This document shows, piece after piece, positions 3,055 through 45,443 of a DNA stretch of 48,180 nucleotides (its first letter is position 1; every line of letters starts with the position of its first letter). The translations under genes and the position numbers were made by a program. Origin of the DNA: a virus. A model generated the notes under the pieces. The model was not told the DNA's origin. It worked only from the letters and a program-made list of their open reading frames with translations, and ran no database searches. The stretch is taken from positions 1-48,180 of the IMG/VR virus record IMGVR_UViG_3300041405_000291. One strand, written 5' to 3'.

Positions 3055-3197
3055 TCAAACCATTCGAGGCAGAATAAGACGAATATCGTTCTGATCTAGA
3101 GAAAAAACGTAGCGATCCGCGTGCTCGATTATGATCTTCCGCATTTGTTGAGCGTTCTCTTCGCCAAGCTTTTTTCCTCTGTAACAAGGGCGTTTTC
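3055..3197 (-). CDS. Possible frameshifted extension of the 3198-3500 gene
   Basis: The reading frame one base off from the preceding gene stays open with protein-like composition (it includes GKKLGEENAQQMRKIIIEH and ends LILPRMV) and stops at 3055-3057. It has no start codon near the stop of the upstream gene; the first ATG gives only 29 residues. Either a frameshift broke a ~145-aa gene, or expression needs a ribosomal frameshift near CGT-AAA-AAT-AAG-TAG. I cannot tell which. Confidence 0.35.
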
Positions 3198-3500
3198 CTA
3201 CTTATTTTTACGATCTGAGCGTGCCGCACTCCAGAGTTCAATTTGCTCCCCGCACGCTTCAAACTCACTCACCAAGTGCTTCTTATCGTCTGGCAATACG
3301 ATGATGCTGCTTTTTTTGAACTGCTGCATCTGATGGGTAATGCTCATTTGCCGCGCGTTAGCCTGACTGATCTTGGCTTTGCTGATGACGTCGAGCAGCT
3401 CAGCCGGAACAGATGCTGGAGTTGTATAAAGCTCATCGCGGTAGGGTGTGCCCGTCAGAGCCTCAAATTCCTCAAGTGCTTCAAGATAGATGCTATTCAT
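3198..3500 (-). CDS. Hypothetical protein, 100 aa
   Basis: A good ribosome site (GAAGG) precedes the ATG. The N-terminus MNSIYLEALEEFEALTGTP is acidic and helical; the middle is rich in Q/K and the end is charged (AARSDRKNK). No family recognised. It is the last full gene of the leftward small-gene array, separated from its upstream neighbour by a hairpin spacer (3536-3575). See the adjacent possible frameshift extension. Confidence 0.6.
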   Translation of the reverse strand: MNSIYLEALEEFEALTGTPYRDELYTTPASVPAELLDVISKAKISQANARQMSITHQMQQFKKSSIIVLPDDKKHLVSEFEACGEQIELWSAARSDRKNK

Positions 3501-3535
3501 AGAGCCTTCTTCGTTCTTGAGGACGCGAAAGCCGC

Positions 3536-3575
3536 ATCCTTACACTGCCAAAGCCCGCGACTCGGCGGGCTGGTG
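3536..3575. repeat. Recurring intergenic element, copy C
   Basis: Plus-strand reading: TTACACTGCC (3540-3549), then AGCCCGC and GCGGGCT forming a 7-bp hairpin, then GGTGTGGCACGGCG. The same order of parts (Y-TAC-TG-M-C, GC hairpin, GGTGG/GCAG-CGG) occurs in the other wide spacers of this array. Confidence 0.5.
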
Positions 3576-3591
3576 TGGCACGGCGATTTCC

Positions 3592-3921
3592 TTACTTCAA
3601 GTACGCTAAAACAGCCATCACAACGCTTGCAATTGCAGCCATGCCAGCCACAACCGCAACAACAACGGACGACCAGGTAGCGCGACGTTGTGAGTTCTGA
3701 AGCGCCATTAGCTTTAGGTCTGTTTGTTGGCGACTAAGGTCGTCGTACTCGCGAAACAATCGCTCAGCGTCGTATCGGGCAGTTTGAAGCAGATGTTCGT
3801 CTTGGATTTGAGCATTAGGATCACCGTATCCGCTTCCAACTTGGTGTATTGACTTTGCTAAATTGGAAGCGATATCACTCGCCCTGATCCACTTGGCACG
3901 CGCTAGATCGATATTGTTCAT
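3592..3921 (-). CDS. Small C-terminally anchored membrane protein, 109 aa
   Basis: Start chosen at 3921 because GGAG lies 5 nt upstream. The body is helical and charged (residues ~1-80), followed by a single hydrophobic segment near the C-terminus (SSVVVAVVAGMAAIASVVMA) and a short LAYLK tail, so it is probably a tail-anchored inner membrane protein. No family recognised. It follows the lipoprotein gene by 19 nt, suggesting joint translation. Confidence 0.65.
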   Translation of the reverse strand: MNNIDLARAKWIRASDIASNLAKSIHQVGSGYGDPNAQIQDEHLLQTARYDAERLFREYDDLSRQQTDLKLMALQNSQRRATWSSVVVAVVAGMAAIASVVMAVLAYLK

Positions 3922-3940
3922 TGCTCCGTTTTCCTGGGGT

Positions 3941-4378
3941 TCAGTACGACGAACAGGTTGTATACCCATAATTGGTGATGCAGTTTGTGTTCATTGGCGT
4001 GTAGACCGGATTTTGGGGTACTACAACGGCGGGCTGCATCCTAGCCCCCACTCGATCTGCCACCATGGCCAAGTTCGCGCAGGTCATTTCCACAACCGGA
4101 CGATCGGACTCATCCACTATGGTGGCGCCGGCATTTGCCAGGCTCGTCTGGACCATATTGTCTAGCTTTGCCTGATCGTACAGGTATTGACTTGGATAGC
4201 CCTGTGTCTGAAAAACCACGTAATGATTGAATTGGTTGATAGTCATTAACTGCTCGCGCTTGCAGATACTGGCTTGGGCGACTCTTGTAGCGATGGTTTG
4301 GTAATCGGATTCGGGCAGTTGGGTTACGCAGCCAGTAAGTGCTAGCGCACCGGCGAATGTTAAAGCGTTCCGTGTCAT
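3941..4378 (-). CDS. Predicted lipoprotein, 145 aa
   Basis: The N-terminus MTRNALTFAGALALTGC is a lipoprotein signal peptide with lipobox LTGC (Cys17). AGAGGAG lies 5 nt before the ATG, which decides the start. The mature part has several Cys (CKREQ, EMTCANLA, TNC, TTCSSY) and an Asn/Tyr-rich C-terminus. It is exported and probably membrane anchored. Function unknown; envelope modification or superinfection exclusion is possible but only an inference. Confidence 0.7.
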   Translation of the reverse strand: MTRNALTFAGALALTGCVTQLPESDYQTIATRVAQASICKREQLMTINQFNHYVVFQTQGYPSQYLYDQAKLDNMVQTSLANAGATIVDESDRPVVEMTCANLAMVADRVGARMQPAVVVPQNPVYTPMNTNCITNYGYTTCSSY

Positions 4379-4429
4379 TCTAACTCCTCTTTCCTGCCTG
4401 ATCCTGGGGGCAGAAAGCACCCAATTTTT

Positions 4430-4475
4430 TATGGTCCTAGCCCGCGTAGGCAGGCTTGTGGGGGTAGCACTTTTT
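4430..4475. repeat. Recurring intergenic element, copy D (diverged)
   Basis: Between the genes at 4378 and 4500: an imperfect hairpin AGCCCGC...AGGCAGGCT followed by TGTGGGGGTAGCAC on the plus strand. It matches the hairpin and GGTGG/GCAGC part of copies A and C; the TACTGMC part is not conserved. Confidence 0.35.
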
Positions 4476-4499
4476 TCCGTGCGTGGGGGTTGATACTGC

Positions 4500-4931
4500 T
4501 CAACCTTCCCAGGCATCCGCGTCGTCCATTGCACTACGCAGATCTGGCTGAACCTTCTTAAGCTCATCAAGAGCCTCACGCAGGCTTGCTCCACTACAGG
4601 ACTGGCCAGCAGCATCTTCGGCATGAAAAAATCGCCATTCTCCGTCAGCAGTCCTCTCGCCGGTGTACCAATCGTGTGTTTGCCAGAAATCCAGCCGATC
4701 GGCGTCTTTTAACAGCCGTTTCAGTTGATCATTCGCGACCTGCCGCAACGCTTCCTGACCACCAACGGGGTGAAACCGATCAGCAGATTTCCAAGCCTTT
4801 TCGATAATGCCCGTAGCTCGCTTTTCGTCGCCGCCCAGGGCGGCAGCTATGCCTGTATGCAGGAGGTCAAACAGGAGCCGTTCACGCGGGTTCAGCCCTT
4901 CCCAATAAGACTCAGCTACTGTGGTTGTCAT
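4500..4931 (-). CDS. Hypothetical protein, 143 aa
   Basis: Soluble, acidic, helical protein (MTTTVAESYWEGLNPRERL; QVANDQLKRLLKDAD; ALDELKKVQPDL). The ribosome site context GGAAAACGATCATGA is identical to that of the gene at 5510, hinting at shared ancestry of the translation signals. It begins 10 nt after its upstream neighbour. No domain recognised. Confidence 0.65.
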   Translation of the reverse strand: MTTTVAESYWEGLNPRERLLFDLLHTGIAAALGGDEKRATGIIEKAWKSADRFHPVGGQEALRQVANDQLKRLLKDADRLDFWQTHDWYTGERTADGEWRFFHAEDAAGQSCSGASLREALDELKKVQPDLRSAMDDADAWEG

Positions 4932-4941
4932 GATCGTTTTC

Positions 4942-5214
4942 CTAGGCTTGCTCGACGTTTTGCCAGTGCAGTTCTACACCTGCTAATTCGCTTGCCGCTG
5001 CCTGCGCATCGCTCAGGTTTGAGAAGTGTTTTGGTAAGCCTGGATAAACTCGAACACCTGCGCGATTTGAATTGCATTGCAACGCAAAAGGCTTGAACAG
5101 ACGATTAAGAGTCTCGATTCCCAGCATTCTTTGCGCATCCACTTGGGCGATGTATTTGCATCTCGAGATCATGTGCATAATTTTCCATGGATTCGTAAGT
5201 CGTTGAAAAACCAT
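4942..5214 (-). CDS. Hypothetical protein, 90 aa
   Basis: Soluble protein without recognised domain; mid-part HMISRCKYIAQVDAQRMLGI, end SELAGVELHWQNVEQA. ATG at 5214 is preceded by AAGG; an in-frame ATG 12 codons later is an alternative. It is part of the leftward small-gene array. Confidence 0.55.
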   Translation of the reverse strand: MVFQRLTNPWKIMHMISRCKYIAQVDAQRMLGIETLNRLFKPFALQCNSNRAGVRVYPGLPKHFSNLSDAQAAASELAGVELHWQNVEQA

Positions 5215-5220
5215 GTGACC

Positions 5221-5252
5221 TTACTCATTCCGCCACGCTTGGCGGCGGGTTG
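5221..5252. repeat. Recurring intergenic element, short copy
   Basis: Plus strand TTACTCATTCCGCC, loop, GGCGG hairpin, then GGGTTGTCCGG. It has the same order of a TTACT motif followed by a GC hairpin as copies A-C and E, in a 44-bp spacer. The match is weaker than in the other copies. Confidence 0.3.
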
Positions 5253-5258
5253 TCCGGT

Positions 5259-5510
5259 CTATTCCTGAATTCCATCGAGGGTCGAGCGCAGTGTCGCTAG
5301 CCCGGCGGGCTGTAGGGCCGCTCGCAGGTCGGCCCAGGGAAATTGCGGCTTGTCCTCAGCCACCGTGCAGCCGCGCGCATGGTCGAATGCGAGGTTCTGC
5401 TCATACGAAGCGCGTTGATGTTGGCAGTCCACGCACTCGATCACCGCGCCGGTACCGGCGATTTGAGAGGGCAACAGGCGCCAGTTCTGGTGCCATTGTT
5501 CAATGTTCAT
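5259..5510 (-). CDS. Hypothetical small Cys-containing protein, 83 aa
   Basis: Starts MNIEQWHQNWRLLPSQIAG and contains CVDCQHQRA (Cys-x2-Cys) with a further Cys in ARGCTV, so a small metal site is possible but not proven. GAGGGAAAACGATC precedes the ATG. It is 12 nt downstream of the neighbouring gene, so probably co-translated with it. No family recognised. Confidence 0.6.
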   Translation of the reverse strand: MNIEQWHQNWRLLPSQIAGTGAVIECVDCQHQRASYEQNLAFDHARGCTVAEDKPQFPWADLRAALQPAGLATLRSTLDGIQE

Positions 5511-5522
5511 GATCGTTTTCCC

Positions 5523-5786
5523 TCACGACGGACGTAGCTCACGCCGCTTCCGCGCGATCGCCCTGGTGAGCGTCATTTTCAGCGCTTGTTCCTGCGCGTT
5601 GTCCAGTACACCGGCAAGGCGAAGACCAACGCAGATACCATCGGCTCTGCCTTCTTCATATGGGATTGCGCCGAGAGTGCCTACACGACAGATTTCCCTG
5701 AGCATATAGCCGACCGCATCATTGATGTGACCGGGAAGGGCCAGTTTGGCCAAGTCAATTTTAGCCAGTTCGTCCATATCATCCAT
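5523..5786 (-). CDS. Hypothetical protein, 87 aa
   Basis: MDDMDELAKIDLAKLALPGH, then a segment with GYMLREICRVGTLGAIPYEE and a basic C-terminus (RAIARKRRELRPS). No recognised domain. It lies between a long hairpin-bearing spacer upstream and a 12-nt gap to the next gene. Confidence 0.6.
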   Translation of the reverse strand: MDDMDELAKIDLAKLALPGHINDAVGYMLREICRVGTLGAIPYEEGRADGICVGLRLAGVLDNAQEQALKMTLTRAIARKRRELRPS

Positions 5787-5823
5787 ACTGATTAGCCTTC
5801 ATTGTTGAGACGCCAAAATGGAG

Positions 5824-5885
5824 TACCTCTACTGCCTCGGCCGCGGCGTTTTGACGGCCAGGGCGAGGGGTGCAGCTGAGCGACT
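5824..5885. repeat. Recurring intergenic element, copy E
   Basis: Plus strand CTCTACTGCC (5827-5836), then a GGCCG...CGGCC hairpin, then GGGGTGCAGCTGAGCG. It shares the order and wording of copies A and B within the 163-bp spacer between two small genes. The rest of the spacer shows no gene. Confidence 0.5.
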
Positions 5886-5949
5886 TTTCCGTTCTACCTT
5901 TGATCATCTGTGGTGCGCGACCTCAAACTCAAAGGCCGCGCTAAGTTGC

Positions 5950-6348
5950 CTATTCGCTCATAAAACTGAATTGGGTAAGTTCAAGTTGGCCGCGCTCCTT
6001 AGCTTCTGGCAGAACCTCAGCCATTTGCTTGATCTGGGCAATATGTGCCCCTGCCAGAATCAGAATCAGCTCACGCACGGTCTGGCCGAATCCCTCGTCC
6101 TCCTGCGGCGGCATAGGGAAAAGGCGTCCAACAGCTGAATCCTTAGGCCATCCTCCGCACGACCCTGCTTCAAAGTGATGAGTTGTGCTGACGTTGGCCG
6201 ACGAAATAGTGACTCTCAGATCATCATATGGAGTCTTGGTAGTAGCTTCTCGACCGAAATACGCTTCCTTTCGAGTGGCAACCGCCTCAACCTCGATCAG
6301 CACTTGATCACCTTCAGGCTTAGCCGTGATGCGGGTCTGCTTTTTCAT
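5950..6348 (-). CDS. Hypothetical protein, 132 aa
   Basis: ATG at 6348 preferred over TTG at 6354 because GAGG sits 7 nt upstream. N-terminal half is beta-rich (KKQTRITAKPEGDQVLIEVE; DDLRVTISSANVSTTHHF), C-terminal half helical (TVRELILILAGAHIAQIKQM). No family recognised. It is followed by a spacer with the recurring hairpin element. Confidence 0.65.
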   Translation of the reverse strand: MKKQTRITAKPEGDQVLIEVEAVATRKEAYFGREATTKTPYDDLRVTISSANVSTTHHFEAGSCGGWPKDSAVGRLFPMPPQEDEGFGQTVRELILILAGAHIAQIKQMAEVLPEAKERGQLELTQFSFMSE

Positions 6349-6384
6349 TCTCAATCCTCTAGAGCAACCAGCCGTTCCGGTTTG

Positions 6385-6440
6385 CTTCTACTGACCTGGC
6401 CCCGGCATTTGGGGGCCGAGGCTTGGGGTACAGCGGGCGT
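6385..6440. repeat. Recurring intergenic element, copy B
   Basis: Plus strand CTACTGACC (6388-6396), hairpin GGCCCCGGCATTTGGGGGCC, then GGGGTACAGCGGGC. Aligns by eye with copy A (TTTACTGACTTAGCCC...GGGCTGGTGGCTGCAGCGG). Confidence 0.5.
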
Positions 6441-6459
6441 TTTCCGTGACTTTAAATCG

Positions 6460-6780
6460 TTAAGCGATGCGTGTGATTTTTTTAGTTAGCGCACCTGGTG
6501 CTGTCCAGGTTTTAATCTCACTTGGTTCGCCGTTATCAATGCTGGTGATTAAATAGAGGATGTCTCCTAATGCATCGTCTACATTCAACCGCCCTTCACT
6601 GACCGCGGTAAGGGCCTCCTTCAAAGCAGATTCCATGCTCTCTAGCGTTTCGTCGTCAAGCGCTGACTCGCGAACATTGTCCATATCGACTTCTCTGGGC
6701 TGAGCGCGATCATCGTGCTCCTCTACGTCCTCGGCCCAGCGCATAGCTGGGCTTGGGTGGACCTGGTGCGACTCTCCCAT
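6460..6780 (-). CDS. Hypothetical acidic protein, 106 aa
   Basis: Start ATG at 6780 overlaps the stop of the upstream gene (TGATG), the classic form of translational coupling; a GTG one codon earlier is possible. Very acidic middle (AEDVEEHDD; SALDDETLESMESALKEAL). A DNA-mimic type role would fit the charge but is speculation. No family recognised. Confidence 0.6.
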   Translation of the reverse strand: MGESHQVHPSPAMRWAEDVEEHDDRAQPREVDMDNVRESALDDETLESMESALKEALTAVSEGRLNVDDALGDILYLITSIDNGEPSEIKTWTAPGALTKKITRIA

Positions 6781-6974
6781 CACTTACTGAGGCTATCGAC
6801 CTCGGCACTCAACTCTGCAACGCGTGTGCGCAGTGATTCACCTCTTGCTTCGTGCCTGCGATCCTGAGCTCCACTCCCATCTTCACGGCGAGAGTCATAT
6901 TCTTCCCACTGATCCAGCTCCTGGATGGCGCGTTCCAGCTCTGCTTTTTTATCCTCTAGCGTACTGCTCATCAT
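6780..6974 (-). CDS. Small coiled-coil protein, 64 aa
   Basis: Almost entirely heptad-like helix (LEDKKAELERAIQELDQWEE; RTRVAELSAEVDSL). AAGGA stands 5 nt upstream of the ATG. It is coupled by TGATG overlap to the acidic protein that follows, so the two may act as a pair. Confidence 0.6.
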   Translation of the reverse strand: MMSSTLEDKKAELERAIQELDQWEEYDSRREDGSGAQDRRHEARGESLRTRVAELSAEVDSLSK

Positions 6975-7009
6975 CGTGATCCTTGGCTAAGTGAGCGCCG
7001 ACCCGGTGC

Positions 7010-7056
7010 TGCTTTACTGACTTAGCCCGCACAAGGCGGGCTGGTGGCTGCAGCGG
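7010..7056. repeat. Recurring intergenic element, copy A
   Basis: Plus strand TTTACTGAC (7013-7021), hairpin AGCCCGC-ACAAG-GCGGGCT, then GGTGGCTGCAGCGG. It is the clearest copy and was used as reference for the others. Confidence 0.55.
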
Positions 7057-7060
7057 ACTT

Positions 7061-7375
7061 TCAAAGGTGGTTGCCATGCACCGAGCGCGTATAGCCGAGA
7101 GCCACATTGAACAATTCAGACTGGCTCGGATTCAAATAGCAGCTGCGCAGATCAATAGTGACTCTCAAGCCATCACCATCACGCTCGGCATCAATGCCAC
7201 GCGTCCGACACAAGGCGATAGATTGATCTGCCAACTTATCGGTAATGCGTTGGCGACCAGGGTTACTAGTCCTCAAATCAAAGTAAAAAGTGCTTCTCAT
7301 CGACCCGGCATCGCTGGAGAGGCGGTTTATGGTGGTTTCGATACAATTGTCGATGTCACGCATGGTTATAGACAT
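7061..7375 (-). CDS. Hypothetical protein, 104 aa
   Basis: First gene of the leftward array after its promoter. Begins MSITMRDIDNCIETTINRLS; alternating beta segments (STFYFDLRTS; LRVTIDLRSCYL). ATG at 7375 was chosen over the upstream TTG at 7432, because the region in between looks noncoding. No family recognised. Confidence 0.55.
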   Translation of the reverse strand: MSITMRDIDNCIETTINRLSSDAGSMRSTFYFDLRTSNPGRQRITDKLADQSIALCRTRGIDAERDGDGLRVTIDLRSCYLNPSQSELFNVALGYTRSVHGNHL

Positions 7376-7434
7376 TTCAAGGTCTCTTGGACATTTTGGA
7401 AGCTTCCATATTGAACCTTTAACTCTCCACAATC

Positions 7435-7462
7435 AATATCTTATTTTAAAAATAAGAATCAA
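7435..7462 (-). promoter_or_regulatory. Promoter of the small-gene array with palindromic operator
   Basis: Leftward -35 TTGATT (7462-7457) and -10 GATATT (7440-7435) with 16-bp spacing. The spacer is filled by a perfect 17-bp palindrome, CTTATTTTAAAAATAAG (7440-7456). The surroundings are strongly AT-rich compared with flanking coding DNA. A repressor or silencer bound there would occlude the promoter; its identity is unknown. Confidence 0.5.
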
Positions 7463-7490
7463 ATAAGAGCGTTTATTTTTTCACACCATT

Positions 7491-7545
7491 GCGGCGTCTA
7501 CACTGGCATAACCTGCGAGCCATTGAAATTGGGCGGGTAGCGACC
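7491..7545. repeat. Recurring element, recombinase-proximal copy
   Basis: Plus strand GGCGTCTACACTGGC (7493-7507) followed by a GCGAGC...GGCGGG region. It closely resembles copy C (CATCCTTACACTGCC then GCCCGC...GCGGGC). It lies between the recombinase stop and the array promoter, where a primary insertion site would sit if the array is recombinase-driven. Confidence 0.4.
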
Positions 7546-7555
7546 ATTGCTACGT

Positions 7556-8227
7556 TCAAAGCGCGACCTCAAACGCTCGGCGAATCGTTTCCTGGCACAC
7601 GCTTAGATAAGGCTTGCTATGGTCAAGGCAGGCATGGCCAAGAATGGTCTGCACCGTTTCAACGTCACCAGTTGCCGCCAATACCTTTGCCGCCAGGGAG
7701 CGCCTGCCGCTGTGCGACGCCCCCTGCTTGATACCTGCCTGCCGGTAGAGCCTGGTGATGGTCTGTTGCAGCGCATCACAAGCCCGGTACACCTCCGGCC
7801 CACTGTCCAGCTCCCGATGCTTGAATGCCAGTTCAAAAGCCTGCCCCTTGTGCGTCATGACCAGCTTTGAACCTGGGCGCAGACCTCGATACTCATCGGC
7901 ACCTGAAAGCCCCCAGCAGCGCCGGGTACGCACATCAAACCAAGCATCAAGCGCAGCAAGGCATCTGGTATGGGTCAGGTACACATTACGCGGTCGGCAG
8001 CCCTTAGTGATGTCTGCGCGCAAATACACCTCGGGCTTGATAGCTCCGCTCGGGTACAGCACGTCGGCCACCTCCAGCAATGCCAGCTCGGTGACGCGGA
8101 TACCGGTCGTGTGAGTAAGCCAAAGCAACATCACATCGCGCTCTGGTAGTCGACCAGTCACGGATGCAACGCGAACAAGGTGTTTGAATTGTCCAGGGCG
8201 AAGCGAGGTGGCACGGCGGGGAGTCAT
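7556..8227 (-). CDS. Tyrosine recombinase, catalytic domain only
   Basis: 223 aa. Catalytic residues visible: Arg in TTGIRVTEL, His-x-x-Arg in HSGRR, the second His in ILGH, and the Tyr nucleophile in HSKPYLSV. No N-terminal core-binding domain is present, so it is shorter than usual integrases (300-420 aa). It is distinct from the main integrase at 42773-44032 and reads into the small-gene array. It could act in excision, in resolution of phage dimers, or in shuffling the array; the last idea rests only on position and the repeated spacers. No clear start alternatives. Confidence 0.8.
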   Translation of the reverse strand: MTPRRATSLRPGQFKHLVRVASVTGRLPERDVMLLWLTHTTGIRVTELALLEVADVLYPSGAIKPEVYLRADITKGCRPRNVYLTHTRCLAALDAWFDVRTRRCWGLSGADEYRGLRPGSKLVMTHKGQAFELAFKHRELDSGPEVYRACDALQQTITRLYRQAGIKQGASHSGRRSLAAKVLAATGDVETVQTILGHACLDHSKPYLSVCQETIRRAFEVAL

Positions 8228-8347
8228 ACGGGCTCTCTGTCAGGATTGCGCGGGAATCGCGATGAATCTGTAGAGAGTGGTCAGCGGACCTCCTGAATAG
8301 CTTACAGGCACGCCCACTGTAATGTTCACGGAAAATGCCAAGGATGC

Positions 8348-12889: not shown

Positions 12890-13709
12890 AGCGCACGAAC
12901 TCCAAGGTGAACGCCTGCTTGCGCGGGATCCCGCCCTGCAGCAGCGCGCTCTGTTCTTCTTCAACGTTCTTCAGGCACCAAGTGCCCAGTACGTCGCCAT
13001 AACCGGTGGTGAGCGTTAGCGGCCGCAATTGGCTACCGAGACTGCGCAGGGTATCCAGTTGTTTGATGCCGCCTTTGAAGCCCGGAAAAATCGCGCCCTT
13101 CAGGGTGATTTTTTCCTCGCCGATGCCCACCGCCTGTTGCGCCGGTCGACGCGTCAGACGTTCTTGAGACGCCCAGCGAAACTCCGTCGAGCGCCGCAGT
13201 TCATCAAACGCAGCCGTGTCCAGGTTGAAGTAGTACGGCTGCGCGTTGGGATCGAGCGGCTGCACGATCAGCAGGTGCGGAAATGGCTGGACAGCCTCCG
13301 GCAGCGGCGTGGCATTACCGGACAGCGAACCGGTGGGCACTATGTTCGCCAGTGACGGGCTGACCTTGCCGGCGATCTTGTTGATCGCGGTGGACGCCCG
13401 CGCCGCCTGCTCCTTCAGTTCACCCATGCGCTCATCGATTTGCGAGACGGCGCGAGTGGCCTTGTTGTAGGTGGCCACGACCTGACCGACCTTGGCTTGA
13501 GCCGCATTGACGCTGCGCATCACGCGCTGCAGTTTGGCCCCGACCGCTGGCCCCACGATGGGGATGCCTTCCAGCTCGGAGGCCGCGCCGCTGATCTCGC
13601 TGATGGCACCGTTGACCGGTCCCATCATGCCGTCGAGGCTACGGCGTCCGGTCTCCCCCGCTGCCGCCAGATTTTTCAGACCAGACTGCAGCTGTTCCAT
13701 GTAAGCCAT
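12864..13709 (-). CDS. Tail protein U with N-terminal extension
   Basis: 281 aa. The C-terminal ~130 residues match P2 gpU (EKITLKGAIFPGFKGGIKQ; LTLTTGYGDVLGTWCLKNVE; EFVRYGDD). The N-terminal ~150 residues are a helical, Ala-rich extension absent from P2 gpU (159 aa). AAGGAGG precedes the ATG. It sits between the tape measure and X as in P2. Confidence 0.8.
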   Translation of the reverse strand: MAYMEQLQSGLKNLAAAGETGRRSLDGMMGPVNGAISEISGAASELEGIPIVGPAVGAKLQRVMRSVNAAQAKVGQVVATYNKATRAVSQIDERMGELKEQAARASTAINKIAGKVSPSLANIVPTGSLSGNATPLPEAVQPFPHLLIVQPLDPNAQPYYFNLDTAAFDELRRSTEFRWASQERLTRRPAQQAVGIGEEKITLKGAIFPGFKGGIKQLDTLRSLGSQLRPLTLTTGYGDVLGTWCLKNVEEEQSALLQGGIPRKQAFTLEFVRYGDDLQNV

Positions 13710-13718
13710 CGATCCTCC

Positions 13719-16196
13719 TTACACATGTGGTTCGTCATACAGCTTGCGGTTCTGCAGCTGCTGCGTGGCTTGCTGCATCTGCTGCTCGATAAAGGGCCGC
13801 AGCTCGCGAGCCATTTGTGCCGGGTCCTTCGCATCGCCTTGCACGGTGATGTGCAGCGGCGCCGATATCTCGATGCGCTGCTCAATCTTTGGAGGCTCGA
13901 CCTTGATCGCTGCAGGCCGTGGAGCCAGCAGTGCCGGTACGCTCGGCGGTGCGGGTGCGCTCAGGGAGCGGGTCACATCTCCCATCGCAGCCGCATCGGC
14001 GGCGCGCTCCGGCAACAGGCTCTGCACGGCCGATGGCGTGGCAACCGGACTCGCAGCCACGGGCGCAAATGATCGGGCAACGCCGCCCTTCACTGGCGGC
14101 AAGTTCTGCCCAGCGTTGGCCATCATCAGTGGCCCTGCATCGGGTACCTTTTTCAGTGATTCGTCCGCACCGAACAGCGACTTGCCAAGCGAGCCGCCCA
14201 AGGCATCACCGCCCACGTAACCGACATAGCCGCCAATCAGTCCGCCAACCATCGTGCCAATGATTGGCACCGCAGATCCAATGGCAGCACCTGCAGCGGC
14301 ACCGGCCAGCGTGCCCGCCAGACCACCGGCCGCTTGACCGTAGCCCTCGGCTTTTTCGTCCTGGGTTTCGGCATTCTGATAGGTGTCGTAAGCCTGATAT
14401 CCCGCCTGAGCAACGGCGAGGAATGCCGGGCCTTTCATGCCGCCGCCGATCTTGGCGCCACGGCCTCGACCGCCCCCCTTTCCACCTTTGCCCTTCTTGC
14501 CATTGCCGTCGGCATCAAGGCCGCCGCCATCCAGTCCAGCGCCACCGGGCGGCAAGTTGGTGACGATGACTTTTTGCGGGATGTTCGGGTTGCCCATCAG
14601 AGTGCCGCGCCCGATGTTCATCAGCCCCTTGCCGACCTTGAAAGCGCTGACCGCCCCCTTGAGCGCAATCAAGCCGGCGACAGCAGCGCCTATGCCAATG
14701 GTGACTCGAGGAAACTCGTCGGCAAACCCTGACATCTTGCGAGTTACGCTGGTAATACCTACGGCTACCGCATCGGTGACCGGTCGAATGGCGTCTCCGA
14801 TACTGCGCATTGCGTCGTCCATGCTCTGGGCCATTTCAGACCATTTCTGCGCAGAGGTTTGCCGGCGCTCGGCGAGGTTTTTGTCGAGGATTCCCGTGGC
14901 GTCTGCCGAATCCTTTTTGAGCTGGTTGTAGAGATCCTTGTTCTGCATGTAAGCGGTCAGCGCAGCCTTGACCTGCATGTCGGCAAACAGGTCACCAGTG
15001 CGCAAGGCCTCTTCCAACGCTTTCATCATGCCCTTGGCTTTTTCCGGATCGCTTTCTTTGCTGATGTTGGCTGTGGCTTCGGCCATCAACTGAGCTTTCT
15101 TTGGGTCGGTCGCGGCGATGTATTTTTGTGCCAGGACAAAGCTTGATTCCAACGTCGACATGCCGTTCTGCAGACCGGTATTCATCGACGCCTGATAATC
15201 GATGCCCGCCTTTTTGTAGGCATCCACCGTCTCACCCGAACCAATCTTGCCCATCCAGTTTTTCAGGTTGTTCGCTGCTTCATCAGCTCCGCCAGCCGTC
15301 TTCATCTGCACCTGCAGCATCGAACCCAACTGGGTTACGGCGTCCATGCCGTAGATGTTCAGGTTGCCCATGTCGGCCAGTAACTGCGGGAACCAGCGCG
15401 CCATGTCTGCAGACTCGAAGCTGCCCGCTTGACCTTGAAAGGCGATCGCTTCCAGCGCCTTTTGCATCATGGCCGGGTCGGTGATCTTAGCGTTCTGGCC
15501 CAGCGCGTTGATCATCTTCGCCGTCTCGGTACCGTCCGAACCTTGGCCGACAACAAACTTGGCAGCGGTCGGGGCATAGTCAAGCGCCTGTTTCAGATCC
15601 ATGCCTGCACCGACCAACGCATTGACCACCTCGGCCACTTGATTGCGCGCCATCCCGGTATCTTGCGAGGTGGTGATAATGGTGCGCGACATGTCCTGCT
15701 CTTGCGCCGTATTGGCAATGCCGGCCTTGATCGCGATGTCGCGAATGATTGCGCCGTAGTCGGCACTAACTTTGGTCGGGATCGCGGCGGCTGCGGCGAA
15801 CGCACCGGCTTGACCGATGGTGCTTTTCAGCCCCTGTCGGCCTTCTTCCATTTGCCGGTGACCCAGTGCTTTCAGTTCGGCGCCGACAGCCACGCGCCCC
15901 ATCGTGGCGTAGGCCTTGCTCAAGCGCCCGACCTCCACGCCTTGCTGCTTCAACAGGGCGAGGTTTTTCTCGTATTTGCTCAGGAGCTTATCTGCGCCTT
16001 CGGCGCCGGCCGTGTGCGCCTTTCGCCATTCGTCACGCAGACGCATGGTGTCGCCGATGGTGTTCTGCAGGACACGGGCTTTGCTGCCGACCGTGTCCAA
16101 GTGTTTGATCTTGCTTTCGACGTCCTTGAAGGCTTTGCCGACCGTCGAATCGACGGCGCCGCCAATGACAAAGCCAAGCGCGATGTTCTTCGCCAT
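13719..16196 (-). CDS. Tape measure protein
   Basis: 825 aa, close to P2 gpT. N-terminal coiled coil (residues ~20-110), a central helical domain with EVVNALVGAGMDLKQALDYA, Gly-rich hydrophobic stretches (LAGTLAGAAAGAAIGSAVPI; MVGGLIGGYVGYVGGDALGG) and a Pro-rich C-terminus. It sets tail length; at ~0.15 nm per residue a tail of roughly 120 nm is implied. GAGG lies before the ATG. Confidence 0.88.
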   Translation of the reverse strand: MAKNIALGFVIGGAVDSTVGKAFKDVESKIKHLDTVGSKARVLQNTIGDTMRLRDEWRKAHTAGAEGADKLLSKYEKNLALLKQQGVEVGRLSKAYATMGRVAVGAELKALGHRQMEEGRQGLKSTIGQAGAFAAAAAIPTKVSADYGAIIRDIAIKAGIANTAQEQDMSRTIITTSQDTGMARNQVAEVVNALVGAGMDLKQALDYAPTAAKFVVGQGSDGTETAKMINALGQNAKITDPAMMQKALEAIAFQGQAGSFESADMARWFPQLLADMGNLNIYGMDAVTQLGSMLQVQMKTAGGADEAANNLKNWMGKIGSGETVDAYKKAGIDYQASMNTGLQNGMSTLESSFVLAQKYIAATDPKKAQLMAEATANISKESDPEKAKGMMKALEEALRTGDLFADMQVKAALTAYMQNKDLYNQLKKDSADATGILDKNLAERRQTSAQKWSEMAQSMDDAMRSIGDAIRPVTDAVAVGITSVTRKMSGFADEFPRVTIGIGAAVAGLIALKGAVSAFKVGKGLMNIGRGTLMGNPNIPQKVIVTNLPPGGAGLDGGGLDADGNGKKGKGGKGGGRGRGAKIGGGMKGPAFLAVAQAGYQAYDTYQNAETQDEKAEGYGQAAGGLAGTLAGAAAGAAIGSAVPIIGTMVGGLIGGYVGYVGGDALGGSLGKSLFGADESLKKVPDAGPLMMANAGQNLPPVKGGVARSFAPVAASPVATPSAVQSLLPERAADAAAMGDVTRSLSAPAPPSVPALLAPRPAAIKVEPPKIEQRIEISAPLHITVQGDAKDPAQMARELRPFIEQQMQQATQQLQNRKLYDEPHV

Positions 16197-37765: not shown

Positions 37766-38509
37766 TCACATCATATTTATCATTATTTTAGCTTCGCGAT
37801 ATATTTTGGAGCGCCCTAAAAACCATGAGGCGAAGCCGGAATACTTTTCACTTTCTCGTGCAAGCATCTCAATCCTATCGATCGCCTCACGTATAGAGCG
37901 CAGTCTGTTAGCTTTTTTCTTCAATGTATTTACGCTGTGATAATTCGCGACAGCTTGTTTTAGGGATAGTTCGAAATCGTGGAGACTCACATGAATTTTC
38001 GAACGAGGCTCCCATAACCGCAGAGTATTGAGCCCGCAAACCTCTATAGTTAGCTCGGCAACATCATACGTTGGCCCCGGCCAGCTCTTTACATTCAACC
38101 CTTCGTAATAAAAATAATGAGCAGGATCTAAATCATAAGGATTGACTATAGGCTCTTTACCTGTATCGTGATCGTCTTTATTCCCATTGCAACGCCTACA
38201 CGCTGGCAATAAATTTAACCATTCAAAGGTTTGGTCTGGATAAATTGATTTTGGTTTAAAATGTTCAACCTCAACATTCCCACCCTCTGACGGAATGCAT
38301 TCGCAGAACGTACATTTCCCATTGGAAGAACGAGTAAGTTCTGACTTGACATCCTTGTGCCGGTAAGGAGCTATTAACAGCTCCTTTTCTTTTTCCGGAA
38401 TATTCTTATAAGAACCATGAACATCAATCGCCTCTTTCAGCTTCCGAGTCAACTCGACTTTATTATTTTTCAAATATTCTGGCTCAGTTCCTCTATTAAG
38501 CTTAATCAT
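37766..38509 (-). CDS. ptuB: Septu HNH endonuclease PtuB
   Basis: 247 aa. HNH fold with zinc knuckles: CTFC (Cys66, Cys69), EHFKPKS (Glu82-His83), WLNLLPACRRCNGNK (Asn99, Cys104, Cys107, Lys111). This is the PtuB/TIGR02646-type arrangement. ATG at 38509 overlaps the ptuA stop, so the two are translationally coupled. With PtuA it forms the Septu defence system, an ATPase-nuclease complex that attacks phage nucleic acids on infection. No reverse transcriptase is nearby, so it is Septu rather than retron Ec78. Confidence 0.85.
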   Translation of the reverse strand: MIKLNRGTEPEYLKNNKVELTRKLKEAIDVHGSYKNIPEKEKELLIAPYRHKDVKSELTRSSNGKCTFCECIPSEGGNVEVEHFKPKSIYPDQTFEWLNLLPACRRCNGNKDDHDTGKEPIVNPYDLDPAHYFYYEGLNVKSWPGPTYDVAELTIEVCGLNTLRLWEPRSKIHVSLHDFELSLKQAVANYHSVNTLKKKANRLRSIREAIDRIEMLARESEKYSGFASWFLGRSKIYREAKIMINMM

Positions 38510-39740
38510 CCTTAAGAGCCACCAGAGATGCAAGTTTAGCCTTTAGCACGATCACTATAGTATCGCTTGGATGTGCTACTCTCTCTAGGCTAGCGATAGC
38601 CTCCTCCAACGCTCCCAGGTCTCTCTCTTCTGCCTTAGAAATAGCCGCACCAATTAGACGTTGATAATCCTTATTTTCTAAGCTTTTAACATCCATAACA
38701 TCGGTCAGAATCTGATCAGTTGACCATCCTGAATATAATTGATCAGATGACGTTATTTCGCCGCCCACTGCGTTTGCAGGCATGATTAGTACTTCATTCT
38801 CTTTAGCAGACGCAAGCAAGTGGGGCGAATGCGTTGTAACAATAAATTGCAGCTTAGGAAAAAGTTTTAACAACCCATCGCGCAACGTAAATTGCCACTC
38901 AGGATGAAGATGCAGATCCAGCTCATCGATCAATACCGTTCCACTTGCAGTAGCCGCCAAACGGTTTGACTGACTAGTTGTTTCCACCCATTCAAATATC
39001 ATCACAATTATGGTAAAAACCGCTTGAAACCCAGAAGAAAGTTCTTCTAAATAACACCGTCTCCCATAGATAGAAAATATTGGCTCTAGATCTCGACCGA
39101 TCTCAATAAACTTAAAATCGCTACCATCAGGACCAATGTATTGAAGCGCATCTGTAAACCTAGAAAAATTTTCTCGCTCTACAGCCGCCCAATCCTTGTC
39201 AATAATAAAATACCTATTAACGAGCCATTGCTTAATATCTCCTGCCCATTCGCCATGCAAAGACTTTACGCTGTTTTTCCGGTAGGTCTTAATAGCATCT
39301 TCAACAGGTAACTCCCTTGCCACACCCTCTATCAACTTATACCTAATACTCCGATTTGCACCAATAAATAAAGGCGAAAGTGACTCGGCGCGATCCTCGT
39401 ACGTTTTAATGTACTGCCGCCCCTCTTCAACGGAAACCCCTTGATTTCCTATTTTAAAACTGCCTTTTCGATATCCGCCACTTAAAGAGTTCTTTCCCAA
39501 ACCGATTCTTAATTTGTCGTCCCCATCCACCATATCTATCCACATGACAGATTGTTCACTAACTGTCGAATATCCGACGCCAGACACGTCAAAACAGTGA
39601 GCTATGCACACCAAGACTGAAGTTTTTCCACAACCATTAGGTCCAGCGATGAAATTAAAGCTCGGGCCAAACTCAATATTAAGAGTTTCAAACTTCCTGA
39701 CATTTTCTACGTGAAGCTTTTCTAAATATCTGACTGACAT
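38502..39740 (-). CDS. ptuA: Septu ATPase PtuA
   Basis: 412 aa SMC/ABC-like ATPase: Walker A AGPNGCGKTS (32-41), ABC-type signature ELSSGFQ (233-239), Walker B VLIDELDLHLHP (269-280), and switch His in TTHSPH. AAGGA lies before ATG 39740. AT-richer than the phage backbone, consistent with acquisition as a cassette. It lies between cI and the early promoter, divergent from the latter. Confidence 0.88.
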   Translation of the reverse strand: MSVRYLEKLHVENVRKFETLNIEFGPSFNFIAGPNGCGKTSVLVCIAHCFDVSGVGYSTVSEQSVMWIDMVDGDDKLRIGLGKNSLSGGYRKGSFKIGNQGVSVEEGRQYIKTYEDRAESLSPLFIGANRSIRYKLIEGVARELPVEDAIKTYRKNSVKSLHGEWAGDIKQWLVNRYFIIDKDWAAVERENFSRFTDALQYIGPDGSDFKFIEIGRDLEPIFSIYGRRCYLEELSSGFQAVFTIIVMIFEWVETTSQSNRLAATASGTVLIDELDLHLHPEWQFTLRDGLLKLFPKLQFIVTTHSPHLLASAKENEVLIMPANAVGGEITSSDQLYSGWSTDQILTDVMDVKSLENKDYQRLIGAAISKAEERDLGALEEAIASLERVAHPSDTIVIVLKAKLASLVALKDD

Positions 39741-39829
39741 TGCTGTTCCTTGCAAGCTGGATGCATCGATAGCCAATAATGATTGTTCACAAGGCAGAAA
39801 GCCACTGCCATAAGGAGCCCAACAGAAAC

Positions 39830-42608: not shown

Positions 42609-42806
42609 ATGAGCCTCCCTCGCTGGGTGATGATCAACCGAGCCTCCGAACTCACTGGATATAGCGAAGACGCAATTCGCCACAAGGTTAAAAACGGCAC
42701 GTGGGCTCAAGGCAGGGTCTGGCGCAAGACGCCAGACGGCCGAATCGCAATCAACATGACGGAGTATGACAAGTGGGCCGAGAGCGCACCGCAGCAAGCG
42801 GCCTAG
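42609..42806 (+). CDS. Excisionase-like protein (Xis)
   Basis: 65 aa. PRWVMINRASELTGYSEDAI RHKVKNGTW, then VWRKTPDGRIAINMTEYDKW: a MerR/excisionase winged-helix typical of Xis beside tyrosine integrases. Overlaps the integrase start. Would direct excision and so restore native mutS. Confidence 0.8.
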   Translation: MSLPRWVMINRASELTGYSEDAIRHKVKNGTWAQGRVWRKTPDGRIAINMTEYDKWAESAPQQAA

Positions 42807-44032
42807 AGGCAGAGCTGGCCAAACACAAAGGGATTGAGATACACGGCGGAAGCATTCGCGTCGTATTCATGTGGCGGCGAATTCGCTGCCGCGAAACCCT
42901 TGGCTTGCCCGTGACCAAAGCCAACGTCAAGCATGCCGCCCTACTCAGGGCGGCAATTCTTCACGAGATCAAGACAGGGCATTTTGAGTACGGTCGCCAC
43001 TTCCCAAACTCAAAAAATGCGACGAACTACACGGCCGTAAAAGACGAGCGGATCGGGGCGCTGCTTGCGCGTTACAAACCGCTGAAGGCTGTCGACATCA
43101 CTCCAATGACCGAAGAAAAGTACGGCTATGCATTGGATATCTGCGCTGAATTGCTAGGCTCGGATCGCTTGGTGGGCATCCTGCTACCCGAAGATATCCA
43201 ACGACTGAGAACCCAATTGATCGCCACCAGGGCGCCGTCGACGGCGAACCATTACCTGGCGACTTTCGCCGGCTTCTTAGCGTGGTGTGAAGACAACAGA
43301 TATTGCCGTGAGGGGTTGGCGGCGGCCTGCGTCCGTTTCGCAATGATCGGACGCGAACCAGATCCTCTGACGAAAGCAGAGTTCGACCAGTTGATAAATA
43401 AGGGCTGTTTACACGTTCAGGATTCGGCTGCGATCACACTCGCCGTTTACACAGGACTTAGACCCGGAGAATTATGCGGGCTGGCGGTGGAGGATATTGA
43501 CCTGGCGTCCGGGCAGCTACACATTACCAGAGCGATCACTGCAGACGGCACCTTCAAAGTCCCCAAAACTGGTAAGCCCCGCACCGTATTTTTGATGCCA
43601 CCAGCCCTCGATGCTTGCAAAAGCCTTATCGGTCTCGTTGAAAACCATGAACCGAGGACTATCGAGATTTATATGAATCGGCATGAGAGCAGGCAGGAAA
43701 CGGTAACGCCATTGCTGTCTCCGACCACGCAGGCTCGAAAGAAAATCATCAATCACTGGTACGTCCCGACATCATGGAATACCAAATGGGCCGCCGTACA
43801 AAAACGCTCTGAGATACGCCCGCGCCGGCCCTATCAGACCAGACATACATATGCATGCTGGTGCCTGACTGCGCGTGGCAATTTGGCGTTCATTGCGAAA
43901 CAGATGGGACACAAAGACTTCACTATGCTAGTTGAGGTATATGCAAAATGGATGGATGACGAATCCCCTTCCGAGCTAAAAAATATATGGTCGGCACTGA
44001 CAAAACAGTTCAAGGCACCATCCCTTTATTAA
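42773..44032 (+). CDS. Phage integrase (tyrosine recombinase)
   Basis: 419 aa from GTG 42773. N-terminal arm-binding region, SAM-like core-binding domain, catalytic domain with Arg in YTGLRPGELCGL, His-x-x-Arg in QTRHTYACW, GH in QMGHKDF, and Tyr in VEVYAKWM. Full-length and intact. Lies ~1.4 kb from attR because the PIN gene intervenes. Its last 23 bp overlap that convergent gene. Confidence 0.92.
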   Translation: MGRERTAASGLEAELAKHKGIEIHGGSIRVVFMWRRIRCRETLGLPVTKANVKHAALLRAAILHEIKTGHFEYGRHFPNSKNATNYTAVKDERIGALLARYKPLKAVDITPMTEEKYGYALDICAELLGSDRLVGILLPEDIQRLRTQLIATRAPSTANHYLATFAGFLAWCEDNRYCREGLAAACVRFAMIGREPDPLTKAEFDQLINKGCLHVQDSAAITLAVYTGLRPGELCGLAVEDIDLASGQLHITRAITADGTFKVPKTGKPRTVFLMPPALDACKSLIGLVENHEPRTIEIYMNRHESRQETVTPLLSPTTQARKKIINHWYVPTSWNTKWAAVQKRSEIRPRRPYQTRHTYACWCLTARGNLAFIAKQMGHKDFTMLVEVYAKWMDDESPSELKNIWSALTKQFKAPSLY

Positions 44033-45263
44033 AACCCTCATTTATCATCTTTATAGAGTCCGCCGCTGATCGAGTTAAGCGTTCGCGGCGTACTCTCTCA
44101 AGCTCAACCTCCACCATTTCACGCATTGAATCCATACTTCGAATCGCGTCAACACAACGCTTATAAGATTCCTCTTCAGAATCAATATTGAGCGCGATCA
44201 GGCCTGCACGAATACTTGCCAGAGACTGCAATTCCTTTTTCATCTCAAGCAATGATAAAACAAGCGCTTCCTCCCTCTCCCTGAGGCTACTATCAGTATC
44301 CTTTACCCAACCCAAAGTCTTATCAAAAAACCATTTACCGGGAAAGCTCGGACAATCTGATTTTATCGCATAGAGCATATTTTCTTGATCATCCACGCGA
44401 ATATCACGAATCTCTTTAACGGCTTCCTCAGAGTCATCCTGGTTTAGGTATTCGCTTGCCCTTTCTAGAAACCTATCGGGAGAGTACATATAAAAAGATG
44501 AACCAACGACAGATAAAAACTCCTCTTTTAGCTTCGGCTGTGGCCCAAGAGTCTTACCCTGAAATGTATACCACCAATCTTCCTTTGCATCACCCGTCAC
44601 AAAGATCACCGGCTTTTGGTCAGCTTTTGCTTTATCGAGAATTTGTAGCCAGACTATATAGTCGCCATAAGGCCTACACCTTTCATCAAAAATTATTGAA
44701 TCAGAGGCTTTTTTCACATCACAAAAACCCGGTGGAATTTTTTGCTCATATCGCTCCTGACCATCCTTTAGAATCCGCTCTAACTGAGCGCGCTCAAAAG
44801 CCTGACCAACTTTCCCATCAAACAATACCCCTAACTTATCCTTGATCTCATCCGAATTTATTCGCTTGTCATGAACACGTTTATTCTCATTTAACTCAGA
44901 TGAGAGCCGAGCGAACAAAGCTGAACTTTCAGTGAGAGTGGCCTCACTAACAAAAGGATGCTGATTGTGACTCTCTAAACTTTTCTTTAGAGCTTCAACC
45001 TTCTTGACCGCATCATCATATATCTTTCCCTGCTCACCAATCACGGCTAGTCGGTTATTTAGGTATTCGAACGCTACTTGATGAGGTATCCAAAGTCGCT
45101 CACCCAACGCCTCGAATACATCAAGCAGCTTCGCACAAGTGAGATCAGAGTATCGATAAAGATTGAGCAGAACATTAGCATCCAAGACAAAAATACAGTC
45201 GCCCCACATTTGATCGATATCATCGATTTGAGTCGAAAAAAAACCTGGGAATTCCGTTTTCAT
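44010..45263 (-). CDS. PIN-like domain protein (defence candidate)
   Basis: 417 aa. N-terminal PIN-like fold: IFVLDANVLLNLYRYSD (Asp28 as metal ligand), YLNNRLAVIGEQGKIYDDA, then DYIVWLQILDKAKADQKPVI FVTGDAKEDWW, the DUF4935/PIN_8-like pattern of putative RNases. The C-terminal third is coiled coil. ATG 45263 (GGAG upstream) preferred to 45281. AT-rich, placed between integrase and attR, a usual spot for acquired cargo. No antitoxin partner seen. Confidence 0.75.
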   Translation of the reverse strand: MKTEFPGFFSTQIDDIDQMWGDCIFVLDANVLLNLYRYSDLTCAKLLDVFEALGERLWIPHQVAFEYLNNRLAVIGEQGKIYDDAVKKVEALKKSLESHNQHPFVSEATLTESSALFARLSSELNENKRVHDKRINSDEIKDKLGVLFDGKVGQAFERAQLERILKDGQERYEQKIPPGFCDVKKASDSIIFDERCRPYGDYIVWLQILDKAKADQKPVIFVTGDAKEDWWYTFQGKTLGPQPKLKEEFLSVVGSSFYMYSPDRFLERASEYLNQDDSEEAVKEIRDIRVDDQENMLYAIKSDCPSFPGKWFFDKTLGWVKDTDSSLREREEALVLSLLEMKKELQSLASIRAGLIALNIDSEEESYKRCVDAIRSMDSMREMVEVELERVRRERLTRSAADSIKMINEGFNKGMVP

Positions 45264-45443
45264 TGTTTGCTCCGGCCTCATAGTGGTGGCAGGGTGGTGG
45301 CGTCACACTCAACATAGTCCCGACTGGCATTCCCCACCACCCCCTATGTTAACCTCGTTCTATTCGGTGGAATTTTGGCAAGCAACACGCGCCACCGCCC
45401 CATTTTTGCCCCACACCTCTACCAGAATCACTCTAAGACATTG
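45264..45443. promoter_or_regulatory. Phage-supplied mutS upstream region
   Basis: 180 bases between the divergent PIN gene and the mutS ATG. Holds GGGTGGTGG (45292-45300) with its complement CCACCACCC (45334-45342), a weak -10-like TATGTT (45345-45350) without a good -35, the 17-bp terminal repeat, and only AAGA as ribosome site. mutS must be expressed from here or by read-through. Confidence 0.45.
45397..45413. repeat. 17-bp terminal repeat, right copy
   Basis: GCCCCATTTTTGCCCCA, identical to 1363-1379. Lies 30 bases before the phage-borne mutS start codon, so integrase binding and mutS leader overlap. Confidence 0.5.

Follow-up and report, generated by a model that had tools for sequence, protein, structure and literature searches.

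Organization of the Locus

The DNA analyzed here, referred to as the window, is the complete 48,180-bp IMG/VR virus record IMGVR_UViG_3300041405_000291. This prophage of Pseudomonas type carries mutS at one end, and a second integrase, of the conventional phage kind, is encoded at 42773-44032. The array under study occupies positions 3055-8227, where about 11 small leftward open reading frames (ORFs; 3198-7375), several of them preceded by a hairpin element, are headed by a lone tyrosine recombinase. Comparison with related loci (given by their L numbers) shows that such genes move as units between arrays on phages, plasmids and chromosomes, in a fixed orientation and with extremely diverse content, and that the cassette junction is the short sequence GGAAAN.

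The recombinase (7556-8227, minus strand) is a protein of 223 amino acids in which the catalytic domain, PF00589 (E 2.8e-10), spans residues 9 to 209; consequently, there is no separate N-terminal core-binding domain. Residues R44, K75, H172, R175, H198 and Y207 are invariant in alignment A7, and the protein thus possesses the R..K..HxxR..H..Y catalytic domain of the tyrosine recombinase superfamily, which confirms the catalytic-domain-only enzyme proposed in the initial annotation of this DNA. Its best NCBIfam matches are Xer/IntI models, all far below cut-off, and a FimB-type model is absent from these matches. The integron integrase model TIGR02249 reaches 30.5 bits versus a cut-off of 265, with the XerA/XerC/XerD models scoring higher, so that by model score the enzyme falls outside the IntI family; a distant relationship to Xer/IntI is suggested by these comparisons. 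The AlphaFold model is too poor for use (predicted local distance difference test score, pLDDT, 42.5). Among the related loci, recombinase copies are often split, truncated or duplicated within arrays (L015 at 13458-13865, L030, L060, L064, L066 and others), which suggests frequent loss of the enzyme.

Upstream of the recombinase lies the left end of the platform, ATTTTCCGTGAACA (8323-8336, minus strand), which consists of an inverted GGAAAA core and the arm GTGAACA. About 50 loci have it at the corresponding position, with unrelated sequence to its left; a GGAAAA kept between such flanks cannot be only a Shine-Dalgarno sequence. In the relatives L085 and L078, whose recombinases are 33% and 65% identical to that of the window, the left end appears as TTTCCGTGAACA, and in other distant relatives it retains TTTTCC with a different arm. 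Directly left of the platform, four species (L013, L017, L021 and L053) have ~100 bp in common. The left flank of L053 was used to search for an empty chromosomal target, and the candidate, L090 (~1500-1750) from a fifth genome, has the flank common to the four species followed by ATTTCCCTGATCA and a hairpin element of its own; it may represent an empty target, or else a platform that has decayed.

Between the recombinase and the first array gene, an AT-rich stretch (7400-7490, minus strand) contains the palindromic TCTTATTT..AAATAAGA. Plasmid relatives have comparable palindromic, AT-rich stretches ahead of their first array gene, and the region is probably the promoter that drives the array. 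In several relatives (L079, L084, L010 and L075) the first array genes are an AbrB/MazE + MazF/PemK/ChpB toxin pair with its own promoter-like region, an arrangement that is often seen and that may stabilize the platform.

The eleven small leftward genes described in the initial annotation are present, and none of them has a convincing Pfam or PHROG match. Hairpins were located with covariance models, as a regular-expression finder was too noisy; the model used below, R2, was built from elements outside the window only, to avoid circularity. All of the following features lie on the minus strand and are given in order from the recombinase. The first array gene (7061-7375) is 99% identical in L053. 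In cassette 2, a putative hairpin leader (7011-7054; R2 match 7011-7067, E 0.007) precedes a gene for a coiled-coil-like protein of 64 amino acids (6780-6974), with a homologue in L053. Cassette 3 has a leader copy at 6720-6763 (R2 match 6720-6776, E 2.7e-12) and a gene at 6460-6684 that is identical in L053; the boundary GGAAAA at 6440-6445 marks the end of the 99.5% identity with that locus. Cassette 4 contains a leader copy (6385-6434; R2 match 6385-6447, E 2.5e-12) and a gene at 5950-6348, followed by GGAAAA at 5885-5890, and cassette 5 a leader copy (5826-5876; R2 match 5826-5889, E 1e-8) and a gene at 5523-5786, followed by GGAAAA at 5516-5521.

The gene of cassette 6 (5259-5510) has no hairpin leader. 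The next GGAAAA (5181-5186) is the start of homology with L066, where the homologue of the cassette 7 gene (4942-5178) is 77% identical in amino acid sequence and stands between different neighbours. Homology with L008 starts at GGAAAA 4937-4942; the cassette 8 gene (4500-4931) has its N-terminal half in common with this P. syringae plasmid, pMG4_1215. Beyond GGAAAA at 4473-4478, cassette 9 encodes a lipoprotein-like product (3941-4378) that is 80% identical at the amino acid level in L058, and GGAAAA at 3929-3934 is the end of that homology. Cassette 10 (gene 3592-3921) encodes a protein with a hydrophobic segment at its C-terminus and is followed by GGAAAT at 3586-3591, the start of homology with L029, L032 and L042. 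Cassette 11 comprises a weak leader copy (3539-3579; R2 match 3539-3592, E 0.07) and a gene at 3198-3500 that is 81-90% identical in amino acid sequence in three other arrays, at differing positions. GGAAAA at 3193-3198 is the last recognized boundary.

Cassette Exchange and the GGAAAN Junction

The exchange of cassettes is readily apparent from an all-against-all comparison of arrays, in which single genes 97-99.8% identical are found at different positions beside unrelated neighbours (L005/L032/L053, L005/L050, L016/L046 and L023/L061). The common segments amount to 461 bp at 99.3% identity for L005/L032, 485 bp at 99.0% for L005/L050, 242 bp at 99.6% for L023/L061 and 244 bp at 97% for L016/L046. 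Four cassettes of the window and its first block recur in other arrays, with positions 3193-3595 recurring in L029, L032 and L042 at 85-91% identity. Between the window and the chromosomal locus L053, 99.5% identity begins at the left end, extends over 1,899 bp and stops at TCACGGAAAAC, beyond which the two are unrelated. Furthermore, the related phages L005, L032, L050 and L051 have the platform at the same location: the DNA common to them and the window starts upstream of it and continues into the recombinase, and their cassettes differ. The same genes in the same order are therefore clearly not a feature of all relatives, and the suggestion in the initial annotation of an integron-like capture platform with exchangeable cassettes is strongly supported.

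A clean insertion is observed on comparison of L017 and L054, whose flanks are 99% identical. In the empty locus L017, TATAGGAAAT is followed directly by GGATCATGAACATT; in L054, TATAGGAAAT is followed by GTCGCTCC, a hairpin cassette of ~1.18 kb and TATAGGAAAA, after which GGATCATGAACATT resumes. The junctions fall after GGAAAT on the left and after GGAAAA on the right, and the empty site reads GGAAAT followed by GGATCATG. Cassettes without hairpins move as cleanly (L023/L061, L016/L046 and L007/L011/L051). In L023, a promoter-regulator block that includes the last codons of a pA506-type recombinase stands behind a cassette, joined immediately after GGAAAAG.

Breaks in homology generally fall at GGAAAN, immediately downstream of the preceding stop codon; this motif, overlooked in the initial annotation, follows stop codons at nine boundaries in the window. 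Among pairs at least 95% identical, which are not fully independent, GGAA[AT] marks 27 of 38 breakpoints, as against 4.7% of random array positions. In a wider set, GGAA[AT] occurs within 12 nt in both loci at 38/69 starts and 49/96 ends of homology (0.6% for random pairs). The logo of 210 boundaries reads aGGAAAA(c) and little else; as these sites were chosen for GGAAA, its informative part is how little the flanks add.

Taken as a whole, the locus is interpreted as a gene-cassette capture platform working like an integron, with a probability of roughly 0.77. Several observations weigh against this interpretation. The remaining 11 of the 38 high-identity breakpoints lie elsewhere, a few of them in hairpins or genes; as the motif of a tyrosine recombinase, GGAAAN is very short, with almost uninformative flanks; many recombinase copies are broken; and no conserved acceptor (attI-like) site is seen on comparing the recombinase 3' ends. 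In addition, GGAAA resembles a Shine-Dalgarno sequence, and part of the breakpoint signal could stem from selection favouring exchanges in which a ribosome-binding site is retained.

The last point can be extended to an explanation with no dedicated system, in which small genes are shuffled by ordinary recombination, illegitimate or homologous, and the survivors are those joined at a common Shine-Dalgarno GGAAA. The motif does lie at Shine-Dalgarno distance in hairpin-less cassettes, and 5-6 bp of identity could act as microhomology. In hairpin cassettes, however, the junction is still marked by GGAA[AT], which there lies ~95 nt upstream of the start codon; the hairpin is located 9-15 nt from GGAAAN and the gene, which has its own later Shine-Dalgarno, starts ~80-90 nt after the hairpin, so that GGAAA is not the Shine-Dalgarno sequence there. 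Moreover, the inverted left end upstream of the recombinase cannot serve the array as a ribosome-binding site, and this recombinase family alone heads these arrays, in fixed orientation. An origin by undirected shuffling is accordingly considered very unlikely.

In the proposed capture platform, a fixed head would be formed by the inverted left end TTTTCCGTGAACA, the catalytic-domain-only recombinase and the putative promoter, followed by the co-oriented small ORFs. The mobile unit would extend from one crossover point after GGAAAN to the next, comprising an optional hairpin leader with its own Shine-Dalgarno, the ATG, the gene, its stop codon and the closing GGAAAN. Insertion of units, and presumably their excision, would occur by a crossover inside GGAAAN or directly behind it, probably with circles as intermediates, and the array would be driven by the AT-rich region. 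The exchange is presumably catalyzed by the recombinase, as suggested by its association with the arrays and by its conserved catalytic residues. In hairpin-less cassettes, GGAAA appears to be both the site and the ribosome-binding site; it occupies the Shine-Dalgarno position, and an inserted ORF would therefore be translatable at once.

The sequence GGAAAC in the 3' end of the window recombinase gene was considered as a conserved attI-like acceptor and dropped, as it is limited to the window and L053 among the loci compared. One junction in L023 lies at the equivalent position.

The Hairpin Element

In the window, R2 finds five hairpin copies, all on the minus strand and all within the array, of which three are strong, one is fair and one is weak. 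The initial annotation had placed the element in at least five spacers and in one site beside the recombinase; R2 gives no match beside the recombinase (~7485-7540), nor in the spacers at ~4430-4470 and ~5215-5260. An Rfam scan of the window gives no family above threshold. In 890 kb of recombinase loci searched on both strands, 82 matches are obtained at E<0.05, all on the strand of the recombinase, and in a second set of loci the hairpin orientation matches the recombinase wherever the orientation of the latter is known. In 79 whole Pseudomonas genomes there are only 19 matches, many of them in recombinase-headed arrays. Eight further hairpin places were inspected: three have pieces of a recombinase, or a divergent one, in their vicinity, and the fetched range around the other five contains none.

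The stem pairs covary, with a covariation score of 0.25 versus 0.15 for shuffled sequences and lower values for slid versions, and GGAA[AT] is present within 40 nt upstream of the hairpin in 64 of 77 cases (11% expected). A real stem at so short and regular a distance from GGAAAN, largely confined to such arrays, could itself be the recombination site, folded single-stranded like attC, with GGAAAN as a mere flanking landmark. The outer parts TAC..GTA could pair imperfectly. A few breakpoints fall inside hairpins (L017/L021 and L017/L045), and on this ground the hairpin may have some role in recombination. Most breakpoints, however, are located at GGAAAN, before the hairpin, hairpin-less cassettes move equally cleanly, and distant relatives keep GGAAA with few or no hairpin matches. 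It is thus unlikely that the hairpin is the site of exchange, and the earlier expectation of junctions inside the element is contradicted by breaks that generally lie ~10-15 nt upstream of it.

Within the capture platform, the likeliest role of the hairpins is that of 5' leaders in the cassettes, acting on translation or RNA. A stricter form of this assignment, which is compatible with the capture platform, treats them as elements of the mRNA only (leaders for translation start, or sites of processing) carried as passengers inside cassettes. The chances of this are about evenly balanced: the hairpins are optional and covary, and they are placed after a stop codon and ahead of the Shine-Dalgarno belonging to the following gene, whose start is 80-90 nt away, but their near-restriction to these arrays suggests a link to the cassette system, and they might instead help the recombinase to find the cassette. 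The alternative raised in the initial annotation, hairpins for mRNA processing only, may still hold for the hairpins themselves. The hairpins were also considered as leader peptides, which was dropped on inspection by eye, as frame and start are not consistent.

Distribution of Related Arrays

The initial annotation considered a phage-borne cassette system; the system is not phage-specific, most relatives being on plasmids and chromosomes. Phage records contain no DNA match to the whole array, while 120 plasmid records, mostly from Pseudomonas, match it as DNA. At the protein level, the recombinase has matches in 482 plasmid records at E 1e-5 and in 251 at 1e-15, the plasmid relatives being from Beta- and Gammaproteobacteria. 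It is further present (E<=1e-30) in 25 of 399 Pseudomonas species genomes, about 6%, at the head of co-directional arrays of other small ORFans, and 37 genome loci were taken for comparison. Every annotated plasmid locus examined has the recombinase and then small co-directional genes, usually annotated as hypothetical; such loci include pA506, P. siliginis, P. syringae pPP1-1, Rms163 (more than 25 genes), Aromatoleum, Vibrio and others. The first gene behind the recombinase is often a regulator or a toxin-antitoxin pair (PapB-like, AbrB/MazE-MazF, HTH). The same head, array and GGAAA spacers are observed alongside recombinases merely 33-51% identical.

A Pfam search with 143 cassette ORFs, taken from a set with a median length of 95 amino acids, gives few matches, and nearly all of the 25 families listed occur once. 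The domains include Abi_C, PIN and NYN; a methyl-directed restriction enzyme (PADLOC) and two superinfection-exclusion-like proteins (PHROGs) are also found, so that restriction-, abortive-infection- and superinfection-exclusion-like genes are all among the cassettes.

Comparison with Known Systems

The textbook example of modular gene capture is the integron, and the present system resembles it in its working: a tyrosine recombinase stands at one end of mostly single-gene, co-directional cassettes, exchangeable in one orientation and mostly of unknown function. Yet it differs in its recombinase, which is not IntI by model (~30 bits, and no N-terminal core-binding domain), and in its junctions, which are unlike attC. 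The crossover sequence of attC is GTTRRRY, and breakpoints here lie at GGAAAN. Furthermore, intI usually faces away from its cassette array, whereas this recombinase is co-directional with it.

The XerC/D-dif (pdif) modules of Acinetobacter plasmids are small modules moved by tyrosine recombinases and bounded by ~28-bp dif-like sites that are recognized by the chromosomal XerC/XerD. In contrast, the arrays described here have a dedicated recombinase, and nothing is conserved beyond the short core in the 210 sites. FimB/FimE-type invertases are likewise small (~200 amino acids), consist of the catalytic domain only and act on short recognition sequences; they invert one segment, unlike the present cassettes, which are exchanged in fixed orientation.

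The rulAB integron-like elements (ILEs) likewise occur in Pseudomonas, carry tyrosine recombinases and vary in gene content; the parts of the source consulted describe a 385-aa XerD-like integrase with two more recombinase genes and insertion of the whole element into rulB with a 3-bp repeat (PMC4542609). In the same parts, cassette-by-cassette exchange or GGAAAN junctions are not found for ILEs (PMC4542609). The platform studied here has a single 223-aa recombinase and diverse left flanks.

No published description was found in open-access full text; bioRxiv and most subscription journals lie outside that scope, and novelty is therefore provisional. The odds are about even that these arrays represent a widespread, undescribed gene-capture class, in which a catalytic-domain-only recombinase exchanges single genes at a 6-bp site doubling as a ribosome-binding site, captured ORFs are translatable on arrival, and the arrays are a main source of the ORFans that plasmids and phages carry in Beta- and Gammaproteobacteria. 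If true, cassette capture would have evolved more than once, integrons being joined by a second, independent platform that has minimal sites and a recombinase of its own, and the origin of many small plasmid and phage ORFans would be explained. Conjugative plasmids from several genera carry the platform, which could thus transfer genes among them. The question is also raised of how a tyrosine recombinase could use a 6-bp site.

Neighbouring Genes in the Window

Outside the array, the prophage carries a Septu defence pair (37766-39776, minus strand), composed of a PtuA-like ATPase (PADLOC E 1.5e-177) and a PtuB-like HNH protein (E 1.3e-102). A PIN_8-domain protein (44010-45281, minus strand; Pfam E 4e-65, no PADLOC match) lies between the phage integrase and mutS. 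Just outside the array, a SIR2-like protein is encoded at 1574-2800 on the plus strand and is matched by PADLOC SIR2 defence models (E 1.9e-14). Next to it, at ~2800-2830 on the minus strand, the tRNA T-arm-like sequence GGTTCGAATCCCTATCCCTACTT occurs without a full tRNA and is possibly the trace of an attachment site.

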